Shown here piece after piece: positions 2,048-7,048 of a DNA stretch of 14,703 bases. The stretch covers positions 1-14,703 of the forward strand of contig DKBC01000334.1 in NCBI GenBank assembly GCA_002451065.1, written 5' to 3'. The stretch's first letter is position 1. Every line of letters begins with the position of its first letter. The position numbers were made by a program, and so were the translations under genes. The notes under the pieces are model-generated. The model had not been told where the DNA came from. It was given only the letters and a program-made list of their open reading frames with translations, and did no database searches. This DNA is from Betaproteobacteria bacterium UBA6910. Its GTDB lineage: Bacteria > Pseudomonadota > Gammaproteobacteria > Burkholderiales > UBA6910.

Positions 2048-2986
2048 TCAGTCGGTGGTAGAGACGCGATTGCGCCCGGAATTCTTGGCCTGCAGCAACG
2101 CGGCTGCCGCGCGTTCCAACAGCACGTTGGAGGTGTCCACGTCGCGGTACTCGGTGACGCCGAAGCTTGCGGTGACGGGGCGCTCGACGGAGGGAATCAG
2201 GTCGACGCTGAACTGGGTGCGGAGCCGCTCGGCGAAGGCCACGCCTCCGGAGACGCCCGAATGAGGGAGCAAGGTAATGAACGTGCCTCCCTCGTAGCGC
2301 GCCGGCAGGTCCGCCCGCCTCACGCTGCTCGCGAGCAACTGCCCGAACCGTCGCAGGACCCGGTCTCCCGACTCGCGGCCATATATCTGGTTCAATTCCT
2401 CTACATTGTCTATATCCGACATCACGAGGCTCAAGGGCGTGCGGTAACGGCGCGCCCGCTCGACTTCCACGTCCAGCGTTTCTTCCAGCTTGCGGCGGCT
2501 AGGCAGGCCGGTCAGGGAATCATTGACCATCAGCGCGTCGAGCGCCTTTTTCTGATCCTCGATCTCGCCACGGAGCCTGGCGATGGTCTCGTCCTTGCCC
2601 GCCAGTTCAGTTCGCAACCGGGAAACAGAGGCGGTAAGGTCGCCCATCTCGGCCATCTCGGCGAGCACCACGATGCCCCCAGCGACGCCGTACACTGCTC
2701 CCCGCAACGAGCGGACCTGCCCCAACTCCCGGCCAATCCTGAGTAAGCCGTCGTGAACGGGGTCGCCTTGCGCCGCCGAACCCGCAATCAGCTCGTCGAA
2801 GGCGGGCTGAATGAAATACGGGGCAACACTTGCCCCGGTGGTCCCGCCGGTCAGGGCGTGAAAGGCCGCATTGGCCTCGAGCAGGGCACCTTCCCGGGAG
2901 ACCCGCGCCGCCGCGACGGAGGAAAACTCCATCAGCAGCCCCAGCATGGGCTCCCCGTCCCCCAATTTCATAAACCGACTGATCAT
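2048..2986 (-). CDS. PAS-like/coiled-coil/degenerate GGDEF-domain protein (EGGTF)
   Basis: 312-residue cytoplasmic signalling protein with no membrane segment. An N-terminal PAS-like domain (about residues 15-115, with GALLEANAAFHALTG) is followed by a coiled coil (about 115-155) and a GGDEF domain starting at DSLTGLPSRRKLEE. The active-site loop reads EGGTF (232-236) in place of GG(D/E)EF, so metal and GTP chemistry should be lost. The allosteric RxxD motif is intact (Arg223-Asp226, five residues before the loop), and the upstream DID metal site is present. I infer a c-di-GMP-binding or GTP-sensing protein rather than a synthase. The start follows an AGGAG at 2990-2994 with four-base spacing; a longer frame open to 3115 has no such support. 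Its paralogue lies directly upstream. Its stop lies 11 bp from the converging sirtuin stop. Confidence 0.88.
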   Translation of the reverse strand: MISRFMKLGDGEPMLGLLMEFSSVAAARVSREGALLEANAAFHALTGGTTGASVAPYFIQPAFDELIAGSAAQGDPVHDGLLRIGRELGQVRSLRGAVYGVAGGIVVLAEMAEMGDLTASVSRLRTELAGKDETIARLRGEIEDQKKALDALMVNDSLTGLPSRRKLEETLDVEVERARRYRTPLSLVMSDIDNVEELNQIYGRESGDRVLRRFGQLLASSVRRADLPARYEGGTFITLLPHSGVSGGVAFAERLRTQFSVDLIPSVERPVTASFGVTEYRDVDTSNVLLERAAAALLQAKNSGRNRVSTTD

Positions 2987-2989
2987 TCC

Positions 2990-2994
2990 GCTCC
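2990..2994 (-). promoter_or_regulatory. Ribosome binding site fixing the start of the EGGTF protein
   Basis: AGGAG on the minus strand lies four bases before the ATG at 2986. It favours this start over upstream in-frame codons, and the resulting N-terminus lines up with that of the paralogue. Confidence 0.6.
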
Positions 2995-3111
2995 TGCGTC
3001 CATGAATCTCGCGCGACCCAGCCTGTCTTAGTTGTTCAAGCGGGCCCTCTCGCCGCTTGGTCCTGCATATGAATTTAACATACTCCGCCAAGGGCAGAAA
3101 CTCGTGGCCCC

Positions 3112-4038
3112 TCACTCCTCGGCACCAGCCGCTGGGGATCCCGCCTCCTGGTCTCGGCGCAGCGCGCTCTCGGCGCGCTGAATCAGATCCCCCGGGGTAT
3201 CGTTCTCTTGATATTCCGCCACTCCGAAACTTGCGGTGAAGCGACCACTCGCGGGCGCGATGTCCTGGACAGCGAAACGGGCCGCGATCCGCCGCGCGAA
3301 CACGGCCGCACCCGCGAGCCGGGCATGGGGCAAGACAATCAGGAAACGGTTGTCCCCGTACCTCGCAGCAAGATCACATAGGCGGCATCCCACCCGCAGC
3401 AACCTCGCGAAGGTTTGCAGGACCGCATCGCGATTGCCATCACCCGCGGATGCCGCTTTGGGTGCAAGTCCGTCAATCTCTGCCATGGCCAGGCTGAGCG
3501 GGACGCGATAGCGGCGAGTCCGGGCCACCTCCATGTCCAGGCGCTCCAGCAGCCTGCGGCGGTTCGCGAGCCCGGTCAGCGCGTCGGTGCCGAGATTAGC
3601 CTCGATGTTTCCGGCCTGGCGCTCGATCTCCTGGCGCGCCCGAGCGAGCTCGTTCTCCTTGCCAGCCAACGCAGCCCGCAGACCGCTGACCTCTTCAATC
3701 AGTCTTAACCAGTCGGCGACTTCCGCGAGGATCAGCAGGCCGTCGCCATCGCGCAGAACGGCGCTCGCCGGTGCCGTAATCTCCCCGGCGCCGACCGCAA
3801 AATGCAGGGGTCCCGTATAGGATGAGATTTCGGTAGAAAAAACAGAATTGAGGAGTTGCTGGAAAGTGGGGCGCCGGAACAGCCCGGAAATGCCTGTTCC
3901 CAGCACCGCATGGCCGCCAACCAACGTAAGAAACGCCGGGTTGGCCTCAATCAGACGCCCGTCGGGCCCCAACCGGGCTGCGGCAAGAGAAACGAAGTCT
4001 CCAACCAGCCCCACTACCGGAGTTTGATTGGGCGCCAT
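3112..4038 (-). CDS. PAS-like/coiled-coil/degenerate GGDEF-domain protein (GDNRF)
   Basis: 308-residue paralogue of the next gene with the same order: PAS-like domain (DGRLIEANPAFLTLVG), coiled coil, then GGDEF domain from DALTGLANRRRLLERLD. It is more decayed: the catalytic loop is GDNRF (228-232), the first metal-binding Asp is Glu (AEID), and the FKxxND helix has been replaced by an alanine-rich stretch. The RxxD inhibitory site survives (Arg219-Asp222). Diguanylate cyclase activity is therefore unlikely, and c-di-GMP binding is plausible but inferred. The chosen ATG gives an N-terminus that aligns with the paralogue; GGGAG lies about nine bases upstream. Upstream in-frame codons exist back to 4230 but lack homology. 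The 125-bp gap to the next gene leaves room for a separate promoter. Confidence 0.86.
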   Translation of the reverse strand: MAPNQTPVVGLVGDFVSLAAARLGPDGRLIEANPAFLTLVGGHAVLGTGISGLFRRPTFQQLLNSVFSTEISSYTGPLHFAVGAGEITAPASAVLRDGDGLLILAEVADWLRLIEEVSGLRAALAGKENELARARQEIERQAGNIEANLGTDALTGLANRRRLLERLDMEVARTRRYRVPLSLAMAEIDGLAPKAASAGDGNRDAVLQTFARLLRVGCRLCDLAARYGDNRFLIVLPHARLAGAAVFARRIAARFAVQDIAPASGRFTASFGVAEYQENDTPGDLIQRAESALRRDQEAGSPAAGAEE

Positions 4039-4122
4039 GGCCTCATCACTCCCATTCTTGTTATCCCCCCGTAGAAGCCGTTCCCCGTTACCCCTCGGCT
4101 TCAAAGTCATGGTAACAATGTT

Positions 4123-4138
4123 TGTGACATTTGTCTCA
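4123..4138 (+). promoter_or_regulatory. CRP/Vfr-like binding site candidate
   Basis: TGTGA-N6-TCTCA matches the CRP consensus TGTGA-N6-TCACA at nine of ten specified bases. It lies about 85 bp upstream of the GDNRF gene start, between that gene and the end of the TerC gene, where an operator for the signalling pair would be expected. It also overlaps an imperfect inverted repeat (ACAATGT and ACATTTGT, 4115-4134). No matching -10 box could be placed with confidence, so function is inferred from the pattern and position. Confidence 0.35.
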
Positions 4139-4223
4139 AAGAAAAGATTCCTGCCACAGATCGGCGCGGGTGGGGGATTTCGCCCGGAGGGTGTCCGGGG
4201 ACCCATGGGGTGAGGGGAAACCC

Positions 4224-4238
4224 GAGGCACGTGGCCTC
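4224..4238. repeat. Short inverted repeat downstream of the TerC gene
   Basis: GAGGC and GCCTC arms separated by five bases lie about 30 bp past the TerC gene stop, next to a second small palindrome (GGGTC-C-GACCC). There is no T-run after either, so this is at best a weak terminator or transcript-end hairpin. The rest of the gap 4039-4264 holds only the CRP-like site. Confidence 0.25.
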
Positions 4239-4264: not shown

Positions 4265-5230
4265 TCAGGCGCCGACGCGAGTGGGCCGGGGATCGGGACG
4301 GCGTAGCAGGCTGATAAAGATGGACCCCGTCAGCAGGATGACCACCACCCCGAGGGACCAGAAGACCGGGATCTTGATGAAATCCACCGCCAGCATCTTT
4401 ACGCCGATGAACATCAGCACCAGGGCCAATCCGTATGAGAGCAAGTGAAAGCGATCCGCCATCTCCGCCAGCAGGAAATACATGGCTCTCAGCCCGAGGA
4501 CGGCAAAGATGTTGGAAGTGAGCACGATAAACGGGTCCGAAGTGATGGCGAAGATGGCCGGGATGCTGTCCACGGCGAACACCAAGTCAGTGACCCCGAT
4601 CATGACCATCACCACGAACAGCGGCGTTGCCCAGCGCAAACCGTTTTGGTTCACAAGAAATCGCTCGCCATGAAATTCGGACGTAACCCGCAGCTGGGAT
4701 CGCATCCAGCGCAGGGCGGGATTCGCCTCCAGATCCGGCTTCTGGCCGGCGAACCACAGCATCTTGATCCCGGTGACCAACAGGAAAAACCCGAAGAGAT
4801 AGAGGATCCAATGAAAATGCGCAATCAGCCAAGCGCCCACCAGGATCATGATGGCGCGCAGCACCAGGGCGCCGATCACGCCGAAAACAAGGACCCGGCG
4901 CTGGAATTCCGGCGGCACCGCGAAATAGCTGAACAACATGAGGAACACGAATATGTTGTCCACCGCCAGGGACTTCTCGATGACGTAGCCGGTGAGGAAT
5001 TCGGTGGCTTTCAGGTTCGCCATCTGCCGGCCAAGCTCCGCGTCCAGGTACCCCCATAGCATGCCGCAGAACGCGAGTGCGAGCATGACCCATAGCGCAG
5101 ACCACTTAAGCGCGGCGCCAACAGAGACGCGCCCGGCGGCGTTGCCCACCAGCCGCAGGTCGAGGGCCAGGGCCGCGGACACGAAGCCGGCGAACCCCGC
5201 CCACATCCACCAGGTTCCGATGGTTTCCAA
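4265..5230 (-). CDS. alx: TerC-family (Alx-type) integral membrane protein, probable Mn2+ exporter
   Basis: Inner-membrane protein with about nine hydrophobic segments. Characterised Alx and TerC relatives (E. coli Alx, B. subtilis MeeF/MeeY) export or handle manganese. The two conserved family segments are visible: EKSLAVDN (85-92) and TDLVFAVDSIPAIFA (from 214), together with SDPFIVLTSNIFAVLGLRAMYF. The start is a TTG: reading from it gives LETIGTWWMWAGF, matching the N-terminus of E. coli Alx, and a length of 321 residues, the same as Alx. A longer frame back to 5356 adds an unrelated arginine- and proline-rich stretch. Odd point: the glutamate usual three residues before the TD pair is Gly212. 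It follows the TerB gene after 214 bp and probably shares the manganese riboswitch upstream of that gene. Confidence 0.9.
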   Translation of the reverse strand: METIGTWWMWAGFAGFVSAALALDLRLVGNAAGRVSVGAALKWSALWVMLALAFCGMLWGYLDAELGRQMANLKATEFLTGYVIEKSLAVDNIFVFLMLFSYFAVPPEFQRRVLVFGVIGALVLRAIMILVGAWLIAHFHWILYLFGFFLLVTGIKMLWFAGQKPDLEANPALRWMRSQLRVTSEFHGERFLVNQNGLRWATPLFVVMVMIGVTDLVFAVDSIPAIFAITSDPFIVLTSNIFAVLGLRAMYFLLAEMADRFHLLSYGLALVLMFIGVKMLAVDFIKIPVFWSLGVVVILLTGSIFISLLRRPDPRPTRVGA

Positions 5231-5444: not shown

Positions 5445-5885
5445 TCATGCCACGGCCCTTTCGCTGCTCCCTTTATTCAGCAGCTCGCCCTCGAGGGACT
5501 CCAGGGAGAACTCCCAGCGCTCAAGGATGTAGCGCAACACCGCCACCTCGGGGTCGCTCAGGTGATCGTCAGCGTTTATGACATTGAGCAGCATGCCGCA
5601 GGTCAGGACCCGCAGCTGACGATCGTTCACCAAGCCGATCACGTCGTCGATACGCGCCTTGTCCACCAGCTTGATTCGCCCGTTGCTGGCAGGGCGCGCA
5701 AGAAGGTCGCCGCAGTAGTCGTGCACTACCTTCATGAAACCGAGCCGGGAAATACCGATGATTTCGTAGATGCGGAGGTGGTCCAGGACCTCGATCTCGC
5801 GCGGGTGCAGCTTGCCGTCGGTCACCATAATCATGGCCAGCACCTGAGACACGGCCTCCGGACTGTTGTGGGGGTAACGATTCAT
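5445..5885 (-). CDS. TerB-family cytoplasmic protein behind a Mn2+ riboswitch
   Basis: 146-residue, all-helical soluble protein without signal peptide or membrane segment. Two similar acidic segments mark the TerB fold: VTDGKLHPREIEVLDHL (about residues 22-38) and NADDHLSDPEVAVLRYIL (about 104-121), each placing Asp and Glu where TerB-like proteins may bind divalent metal. TerB proteins were named from tellurite operons, but their biochemical role is unsettled. Here the gene follows the manganese riboswitch directly and precedes an Alx-type TerC gene, and no other tellurite-cluster gene is seen nearby. I infer a metal-responsive partner of the exporter. The ATG has a strong AAAGGAG ribosome site eight bases upstream, so the start is secure. 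Confidence 0.85.
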   Translation of the reverse strand: MNRYPHNSPEAVSQVLAMIMVTDGKLHPREIEVLDHLRIYEIIGISRLGFMKVVHDYCGDLLARPASNGRIKLVDKARIDDVIGLVNDRQLRVLTCGMLLNVINADDHLSDPEVAVLRYILERWEFSLESLEGELLNKGSSERAVA

Positions 5886-5893
5886 GTTGCCAT

Positions 5894-5900
5894 CTCCTTT
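5894..5900 (-). promoter_or_regulatory. Ribosome binding site of the TerB gene
   Basis: AAAGGAG lies eight bases before the ATG at 5885, a near-perfect Shine-Dalgarno. It is only eight bases past the T-run of the riboswitch terminator, so no promoter fits between them and translation of this gene depends on read-through. Confidence 0.8.
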
Positions 5901-5908
5901 CGTGAGTC

Positions 5909-5944
5909 AAAAAAAAAGACCCTCGCCATTTCTGGCAAAGGTCT
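5909..5944 (-). terminator. Intrinsic terminator forming the expression platform of the riboswitch
   Basis: On the minus strand AGACC (5944-5940) pairs with GGTCT (5921-5917) and GCCA (5936-5933) with TGGC (5928-5925), separated by a 3x3 internal loop and closed by a GAAA loop, then nine Ts (5917-5909). The 5' arm is the conserved 3' end of the yybP-ykoY aptamer, so terminator and aptamer helix P1 exclude each other. In the family, Mn2+ binding stabilises the aptamer and allows read-through. It may also stop stray transcripts from the upstream catabolic genes. Confidence 0.88.
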
Positions 5945-6042
5945 CGCTCGCAGCCTTGGAGCACCCGTAGTCGGCTCCGCTGCCGGCTGGACCGGGGAAC
6001 ATCCCGTAATGACGGCCCAACCGCGTAAGCTACTCCCCTTCG
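5934..6042 (-). ncRNA. yybP-ykoY (Mn2+) riboswitch aptamer
   Basis: Cis-regulatory RNA that senses Mn2+ and controls efflux genes. Conserved segments seen in order: AAGGGGAGUAGC (6040-6029), CGUCAUUACGG (6014-6004) and AGACCUUUGCC (5944-5934). The helices can be drawn by hand. P1 is CGAAGG (6042-6037) with CCUUUG (5941-5936). P2 is GCUUACGC (6030-6023) with GCGAGC (5951-5946), with a UA bulge. P3 is GGUUGGGCCG (6022-6013) with CGGUCCAGCC (5994-5985), ten pairs. P4 is GCAGCGGAGC (5983-5974) with GCUCC and GCUGC (5962-5950), an AAG bulge between. P2 and P4 compete for two bases at 5950-5951. In published structures the two conserved loops dock side by side around the Mn2+. The downstream TerB and Alx-type genes fit the known targets. 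Confidence 0.92.
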
Positions 6043-6095
6043 GACCCGCCGCTTCCGGTCAACCGGCCGCGCCGCGCCTTCCAGTCATGTAGCGT

Positions 6096-6125
6096 ATTGT
6101 CATGGACATCGCGCCCGGGGGCCAA
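6096..6125 (-). promoter_or_regulatory. Candidate promoter of the riboswitch-TerB-TerC transcript
   Basis: Minus-strand TTGGCC (6125-6120) and GACAAT (6101-6096) are separated by 18 bp and would start transcription near 6089, giving a leader of about 200 nt that includes the whole aptamer. Both hexamers match four of six consensus bases. A TTGACC at 6062-6057 was considered, but its -10 would fall inside the aptamer. Confidence 0.3.
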
Positions 6126-6144
6126 TGAAGGTTCGATATTCCAG

Positions 6145-6163
6145 CCATTGCGAATCGCAATGG
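6145..6163. repeat. Perfect 19-bp palindrome after the catabolic gene cluster
   Basis: CCATTGCGA, a single central base, and TCGCAATGG: nine-base arms with no mismatch, four bases past the stop codon of the last dehydrogenase gene. As RNA it would make a tight hairpin, but no T-run follows on the minus strand, so it is not a standard intrinsic terminator. It could be a transcript-end hairpin or an operator for the manganese unit, whose likely promoter begins about 20 bp further on. Confidence 0.6.
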
Positions 6164-6166
6164 GTC

Positions 6167-7048
6167 CTAAGCGGCTCCTCCCGCTCGTTCGATCAGCTTC
6201 ACCAGCAGGGACGTGTCGCGCTTCGCGCCGCCGCCGCTCATCAAGGCGTTGTAATTCTGCGCCGCGACGCTCGCCGCGGGGATCGCGAGCCCCACTTCCG
6301 CCGCAAGTCCCATGACGATGTGCATGTCCTTCCAGTGCCAGCGCGCTTCGACGCCCGGGTCGTAGTCTTCCTCAACCATGCGCCGACCCATGACGTCCAG
6401 CACCCGGCTTGCGGCAAAGCCGCCCATCAGGGCTTCGCGTACCTTGCCCGCGTCGACGCCGCAGCGGCGGGCAAGCGCCAACCCTTCGGCGCAGGCCTCC
6501 AGCGTGGTGACGAGGATCAGTTGATTCACCGCCTTCGCCACCTGCCCTGCCCCGTTTTCGCCCACGTGCACCACGGTCTTCCCCATGCGCTCGAGCACGG
6601 GCCTAACCCGCGCATAGACCTCGGGCCTGCCGCCCACCATGACGGAAAGCGTGCCCTGAACCGCGCCCGCCTCTCCGCCAGACACCGGCGCGTCCAGCAT
6701 CTCGATGCCTCTGGCGCGCAGGATCTCGGCCATACGCCGCGTCGCGCCGGGAGCGATAGTGCTGCAGTCCACCACCACCGAGCCCGGCGCGAGGCCATGG
6801 ATCAGGCCGTCGTCGCCCAGCACCACCTGCTCCACATCCGGCGTGTTGGTCACCATGGTGAAAACGATGTCGCTCGCCCGTGCCACTTCCCTGGGAGATC
6901 CCGTCAACGACGCCCCTCCCGCCGCCAGCACCTGCGCCGTCTCCAGGCGCCGCGCATAGACGGCGAGTGTGTACCCCGCCTTGAGCAGGTTCTGGGCCAT
7001 GGGCCGGCCCATCACGCCCAGCCCGACAAAGCCGATTCGGGGTTGCAT
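6167..7048 (-). CDS. NAD(P)-dependent beta-hydroxyacid dehydrogenase (tartronate semialdehyde reductase-like), copy 2
   Basis: 293-residue oxidoreductase of the 3-hydroxyisobutyrate dehydrogenase family, which includes the GarR and GlxR tartronate semialdehyde reductases. It has an N-terminal Rossmann domain with GFVGLGVMGRPMA, the substrate-binding DAPVSGG segment, the catalytic lysine (Lys172 in GAGQVAKAVNQ) and an all-helical C-terminal domain. Length is normal for the family. The ATG lies two bases after the stop of its tandem paralogue, with GGAG eight bases upstream inside that gene's end, so the two are translationally coupled. The substrate is not decided by sequence: tartronate semialdehyde, 3-hydroxyisobutyrate and related acids are possible. 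The cofactor is also not assigned. It is the last gene of the cluster and diverges from copy 1 mostly at the C-terminus. Confidence 0.88.
   Translation of the reverse strand: MQPRIGFVGLGVMGRPMAQNLLKAGYTLAVYARRLETAQVLAAGGASLTGSPREVARASDIVFTMVTNTPDVEQVVLGDDGLIHGLAPGSVVVDCSTIAPGATRRMAEILRARGIEMLDAPVSGGEAGAVQGTLSVMVGGRPEVYARVRPVLERMGKTVVHVGENGAGQVAKAVNQLILVTTLEACAEGLALARRCGVDAGKVREALMGGFAASRVLDVMGRRMVEEDYDPGVEARWHWKDMHIVMGLAAEVGLAIPAASVAAQNYNALMSGGGAKRDTSLLVKLIERAGGAA

Follow-up and report, generated by a model that had tools for sequence, protein, structure and literature searches.

The window, by which we mean the whole 14,703-nt stretch of DNA that was analysed, carries on its minus strand a structured leader (6042-5909) followed by a TerB-like gene and a gene of the TerC/Alx family. 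A reading made from the letters alone, without database searches (the sequence-only reading), had described this leader as a complete Mn2+ riboswitch of the yybP-ykoY class with a mutually exclusive terminator. The features of the locus are as follows, R1 being a covariance model described below.

5936-6042 (minus strand): alx-type yybP-ykoY (Mn2+) aptamer without P2; R1 match, RNAfold
6037-6042 (minus strand): P1 5′ strand CGAAGG, partner of 5941-5936; sequence, RNAfold, pairing in 23 relatives
6031-6036 (minus strand): L1 5′ side GGAGUA; identical letters in E. coli alx, and invariant in 23 aligned relatives, a block that their selection pattern itself demanded
6027-6030 (minus strand): P1.2 5′ strand GCUU, partner of GAGC 5949-5946; RNAfold and relatives
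6016-6023 (minus strand): P3 5′ strand CGGUUGGG, partner of UCCAGCCG 5991-5984; RNAfold and covariation in relatives
6006-6015 (minus strand): L3 region, 5′ side CCGUCAUUAC; sequence, nine of ten letters as in E. coli alx
5992-6005 (minus strand): outer P3 arm GGGA-UGU-UCCC, then CGG (5994-5992); sequence, RNAfold
5984-5991 (minus strand): P3 3′ strand UCCAGCCG; RNAfold
5950-5983 (minus strand): P4 hairpin; RNAfold
5942-5949 (minus strand): P1.2 3′ strand GAGC (5949-5946) and L1 3′ side GAGA (5945-5942); RNAfold
5936-5941 (minus strand): P1 3′ strand CCUUUG, common to P1 and the terminator; RNAfold, R1 match
5909-5944 (minus strand): intrinsic terminator AGACCUUUGCCA-GAAA-UGGCGAGGGUCU, 12 bp plus a G-U pair 5945/5916, T run 5917-5909 (T9); RNAfold, terminator scan
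5894-5900 (minus strand): Shine-Dalgarno-like AAAGGAG; sequence
5445-5885 (minus strand): TerB-like gene, 146 aa; sub-threshold Pfam match
4265-5230 (minus strand): TerC/Alx-family membrane protein, 321 aa, probable TTG start at 5230 (start by homology); NCBIfam TIGR03718

The TerC protein matches TIGR03718 (R_switched_Alx) at 399 bits against a cut-off of 246.4, which places a manganese homeostasis gene downstream of the leader. The TerB label given earlier to the first gene survives as a likeness, with Pfam PF05099 scoring 20 bits, below its cut-off of 24.4, and no match in NCBIfam. From the gene layout, we infer that the switch and the two genes form one operon. Downstream of TerC, in the same orientation, lie two GGDEF (diguanylate cyclase) genes (2048-4230), which read-through from the switch might also reach. 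On the upstream side, a perfect inverted repeat without a T run, CCATTGCGA-T-TCGCAATGG (6145-6163, minus strand), adjoins the end of a co-directional dehydrogenase gene (6167-7048). A scan of positions 5850-6200 recognised no sigma-70-like promoter.

The three conserved yybP-ykoY blocks indeed follow one another in order on the minus strand between 6042 and 5909, and the layout of helices and T9 terminator proposed by the sequence-only reading proved right to the base when compared with the sequence, RNAfold and a terminator scan. Both the L1 block GGGGAGUAGC and GAGACC are present, as are P1.1, P1.2, P3 and P4, the covariation test reported below covering P1, P1.2 and P3. Folded from 6045 to 5935, the RNA adopts the aptamer helices as its unprompted best structure, with P3 lengthened by CCG/CGG pairing and an open L3 of UCAUUAC. 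Within CCGUCAUUAC, A6010 takes the place of the invariant metal-contacting adenosine of the L3 UCA, whose counterparts A41 in L. lactis and A48 in X. oryzae are reported to contact Mn2+ (PMC6754395). The description as "complete", by contrast, had to be given up: P1.2 and P3 are three nucleotides apart (ACG, 6026-6024), so that P2 is missing and the junction in the leader (6042-5936) is three-way, not the four-way junction around which P1/P2 and P3/P4 stacks are described in crystals (PMC11087558). The aptamer on its own is of ordinary stability (RNAfold; z −1.56, 14 of 200 shuffles equally stable), and our case is therefore built on comparison rather than on energy; for the whole leader, z is −4.1 and none of 200 shuffles is equally stable.

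The terminator hairpin reaches −21.2 kcal/mol (z −6.3; 0 of 200 shuffles equally stable) and, because its 5′ arm contains the P1 3′ strand, it cannot coexist with P1. That CCUUUG (5941-5936) is shared in this way, and that the two structures exclude each other, had been proposed from the sequence and is borne out by RNAfold: the full leader (6045-5909) folds best with the terminator formed and P1 opened, a P1-forced fold of the same length being 13.5 kcal/mol less stable. In growing transcripts, folded every 3 nt, P1 is present from 5936, is kept at 5924 (there shifted by one base) and is gone at 5921; by 5918, once the 3′ arm has been made, C5941 lies inside the terminator. Likewise as proposed, eight bases (5908-5901) separate the T run from the AAAGGAG motif; the ATG lies at 5885. 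The further claim of the sequence-only reading, that the TerB gene can be expressed only by way of this switch, presupposes that there is no internal promoter.

For a comparative view of the leader, we searched for relatives with a pattern of its three blocks. The window has a single match to this pattern and its shuffles none (0 of 200); forward matches occur in 44 of the 399 genomes of the order (the window's own included) and backward matches in none. As measures of chance these figures are partly circular, the pattern having been derived from the family blocks and from the window itself. Counting distinct hits in the examined loci, rather than every place in the 399-genome scan, 42 have the window's L3 type (window included) and 14 the mntP type. 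The model R1 was built from 23 P2-less relatives with the window left out. With R1, the window reaches 69.9 bits (E 3.3e-20) and is the sole significant match in the 3.28-Mb genome, an assembly 85.5% complete in 365 contigs (E 7.2e-18; next best E 6.55). Part of this score arises by construction, since the training sequences had been gathered with a pattern that already required these blocks; more independent evidence comes from the helices and the gene context.

Compensatory changes support the helices. With a structure drawn from the window and from L081, a locus in a same-family genome that is itself one of the 23 rows, 85.8% of pair cells are paired in the relatives (74.3% when shuffled), and there are 70 both-side changes versus 22.8, a level reached in 0 of 500 shuffles; when the partners are slid by one to three positions, pairing drops to 31-60%. 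P1 is paired in 96.4% of cells and shows both-side changes in three of its six pairs. P3 shows them in seven of eight pairs with 76.1% of cells paired, counts that are lowered by some alignment rows standing one column off behind L3. For this helix, we prefer the covariation to a permutation figure (mean run 5.90 versus 1.68) that is inflated by the choice of the CGG position for maximal pairing.

The type of switch found in the window is repeatedly linked to TerC. Among the best 80 of 255 TerC relatives, taken from titled genome records mostly labelled Betaproteobacteria (Rhodocyclaceae, Dechloromonas, Aromatoleum), 50 have an R1 match that lies upstream in the same orientation as TerC and ends 75-321 nt short of the TerC match; besides these, one TerC locus (L144) has a partial match of 17.4 bits. 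That TerB comes first after the switch seems to be a local arrangement, as R1 finds no switch close to the order's TerB relatives (L033-L043). None of those loci shows the gene order switch-TerB-TerC, nor do the genome's two further TerC genes (L097 and L098, neither with an R1 match nearby) or the 80 TerC loci, and a first TerB-based scan of genome contigs gave no match. Other combinations do occur: three loci (L117, L119 and L140) have two TerB-like stretches each, upstream of switch and TerC, and in two loci (L107 and L041) a single TerB-like gene immediately precedes TerC, with no R1 match.

Room for P2 is lacking in 24 of the 42 pattern hits with the window counted (23 of 41 without it), and 18 of the 42 do have such room (at least 20 nt). 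Judged by segment length (at most 14 nt), P2 is missing from 49 of the 50 TerC-linked relatives, a proportion biased by the training of R1 on P2-less sequences. The missing P2 is best read as the mark of an alx-type subgroup, which includes the proven member E. coli alx. Within this group, the U-tailed terminator is a minority platform: a U5-tailed hairpin using the P1 3′ strand occurs in 5 of the 42 pattern hits (window included) and in 2 of the 50 TerC-linked hits, with L081, where a T7 terminator uses that strand, as a clear second case by sequence. Pairing of the ACC with downstream letters is seen in 28 of 42 pattern hits and 35 of 50 TerC-linked hits, where shuffled downstream letters lead one to expect 21.5 and 18.2, respectively.

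The genes behind the 42 alx-type hits are not all of the TerC family. A relative of the LysR protein of L069 lies within 1.8 kb downstream in 16 of them, a YjbE-like TerC in 10, an Alx-like TerC in 7 (window included) and none of these in 9. Switches preceding LysR genes are found at L069 (1501-1621, minus strand), L031, L026, L064, L070, L077, L082 and L021, the LysR assignment being confirmed by Pfam for L069 and made for the others as relatives of its protein. At L026, L031 and L069, the LysR and TerC genes are divergently oriented, and each of the two has a separate switch. Among the titles listed by a literature search, none pairs a yybP-ykoY or manganese riboswitch with LysR.

The database model of the family tells a different story, which needs to be read with its controls. 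RF00080 (Rfam release 15) scores the minus-strand leader at 12.4 bits, well short of its gathering cut-off of 45 and thus outside the family as defined; the fit is poor over the 3′ half, and in a whole-genome search at E ≤ 10 the leader was not listed, the best match being 10.3 bits elsewhere. The sequence-only reading had named this search as its own check and is formally refuted by it, but E. coli alx fails likewise, with no RF00080 match at E ≤ 1 in the E. coli K-12 control (loci L179 and L180). The E. coli mntP leader, at 41.6 bits, also stays under the cut-off. Since both are reported Mn2+ riboswitches, the failure carries little weight, and the cut-off is best seen as an operational threshold below which proven members fall. 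We attribute the low score to the model's L3 consensus, GUCAACAUACUUG...AUGGCG, which is of the E. coli mntP type, and to its P1, which is not modelled as pairs. Rfam at its cut-offs gave zero matches in 60 of the 80 TerC loci, though 45 of these 60 are R1-positive; the switch at L135 reaches 39.6 bits with RF00080. Run on the 39 genomes that contain the R1-positive loci, RF00080 has above-cut-off matches in 13, while the TerC loci themselves of those 13 genomes (nine plus four) have none. At its cut-off, RF00080 missed every alx-type member tried: the 45 TerC loci, E. coli alx and the window. Annotations of Betaproteobacteria thus probably overlook part of the Mn2+ control of TerC operons and, apparently, of some LysR regulators.

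Taken together, we read the leader of the TerB-like/TerC operon as an alx-type, P2-less yybP-ykoY Mn2+ riboswitch with ON logic, at a probability of roughly 0.93. Structure, covariation, relatives and downstream genes all support the class and the ON direction that had been proposed from the sequence, with Mn2+ as the probable ligand and activator by analogy. In the proposed mechanism, high cytoplasmic Mn2+ would lead L1 to dock on L3 around one Mg2+ and one Mn2+ ion, the N7 of A6010 contacting the latter. Docking would hold P1 closed and bar its 3′ strand from the terminator, upon which RNA polymerase would read through and the TerB-like protein would be made together with TerC, a probable Mn2+ exporter or metalation protein. 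Without Mn2+, the terminator would form and transcription would stop before the ribosome-binding site. That Mn2+ should turn the operon on is expected by analogy with the L. lactis switch, in which Mn2+ is reported to stabilise P1.1 against the terminator (PMC11087558), and from the L1-L3 metal site described in crystals (PMC6754395). In V. parahaemolyticus, a terC gene downstream of a yybP-ykoY riboswitch is reported as Mn-induced (PMC13274385), and reporters of E. coli alx and mntP are described as responding to both Mn2+ and pH (PMC9603457).

The dual response of these reporters leads to the best of the alternatives, namely, that the RNA is of the same class and takes as its main signal here another ion, alkaline pH, or several signals together. 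For the E. coli alx reporter, pH 8.5 is said to suffice for activation, which is strongest when pH and Mn2+ are combined (PMC9603457), and the L3 letters after the key adenosine are UUAC in the window versus AUUC in L. lactis and UACU in X. oryzae (PMC6754395). However, the window retains the metal-contacting adenosine and the L1 block, its L3 departs from that of alx at one of ten letters, and a downstream TerC/Alx gene fits Mn2+. We consider a different main signal unlikely on balance; an alkaline-pH response as in E. coli alx may nevertheless hold for the window's switch.

Far less probable is that no metal is sensed and that the element is an ordinary terminator or some different leader, such as SSRC10, anti-hemB or PyrG. 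This would account for the strong terminator and for the unremarkable stability of the aptamer part, and SSRC10 is the best Rfam match, at 25.7 bits. This score, however, is far under the cut-off (E 0.0035-0.28 depending on search size), as are those of anti-hemB and the PyrG leader, and we rejected all three identities; the covariation in relatives speaks against such a leader as well. Matches to mir-451, ctRNA, RsaE, mir-1011 and leuA, in the whole window and in the small region, were also under their cut-offs and were rejected. SSRC10 (RF02617), listed as a Streptococcus sRNA and matching 5911-6010 on the minus strand, deserves a remark of its own: its consensus shows GGGAG, CGUCaaUACG and GCgaGaCc, the blocks of Mn2+ riboswitches, and it may thus belong to the same class and be the terminated leader of such a switch. 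In S. pyogenes it is reported to precede a putative calcium-transporter gene; in the same report it is assigned by probe to the complementary strand, which counts against this reading as a riboswitch leader (PMC3675131). A decayed or non-working copy, to which the low RF00080 score, the missing P2 and the lack of a recognised promoter might point, is just as improbable, given that no mismatch interrupts P1, P1.2, P3 or the terminator, all of them intact, and that P2 is missing too from the 49 TerC-linked relatives and, by the R1 alignment, from alx.

The Mn2+ riboswitch of the window is, in our view, an ordinary and genuine alx-type switch with a clean transcriptional platform, of a known class and missed by the database. 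Going beyond this locus, we would entertain, with more doubt than assurance, a widespread P2-less, three-way-junction Mn2+ branch, largely missed by Rfam, that in Burkholderiales would directly control TerC and LysR-type regulators; the loss of P2 may shift its metal or pH set point.

Among known systems, RF00080 as modelled shares with the window the GGGGAGUAGC block and the general plan and differs in its L3 (GUCAACAUACUUG...AUGGCG). The L. lactis yybP-ykoY riboswitch (PDB 4Y1I), as reported, likewise sets P1.1 against an intrinsic terminator and has an L3 of UCA plus four letters, but it possesses P2 and a four-way junction, and its L3 reads AUUC where the window has UUAC. The TerC-linked switches of Burkholderiales relatives (L081 and L135, for example) share the helices, the L3 type and the missing P2; they have TerC directly next, whereas the window has the TerB-like gene first. 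E. coli alx, whose leader R1 scores at 42.2 bits (E 1.2e-11), differs in a long, A/U-rich P4, in the lack of a U run immediately after the competing hairpin, in having TerC follow the switch with no TerB-like gene intervening, and in a best RNAfold structure without P1.2. Yet it shares the blocks CAAAGGGGAGUAAC, UCGUCAUUAC...CGG and GUGAGACCUUG, with L3 reading UCGUCAUUAC for the window's CCGUCAUUAC, as well as P3 and P4, a hairpin using the P1 3′ strand and a TerC/Alx gene downstream, and with some 7 nt before P3 by the R1 alignment, and no room for P2, its junction is seemingly three-way, too.
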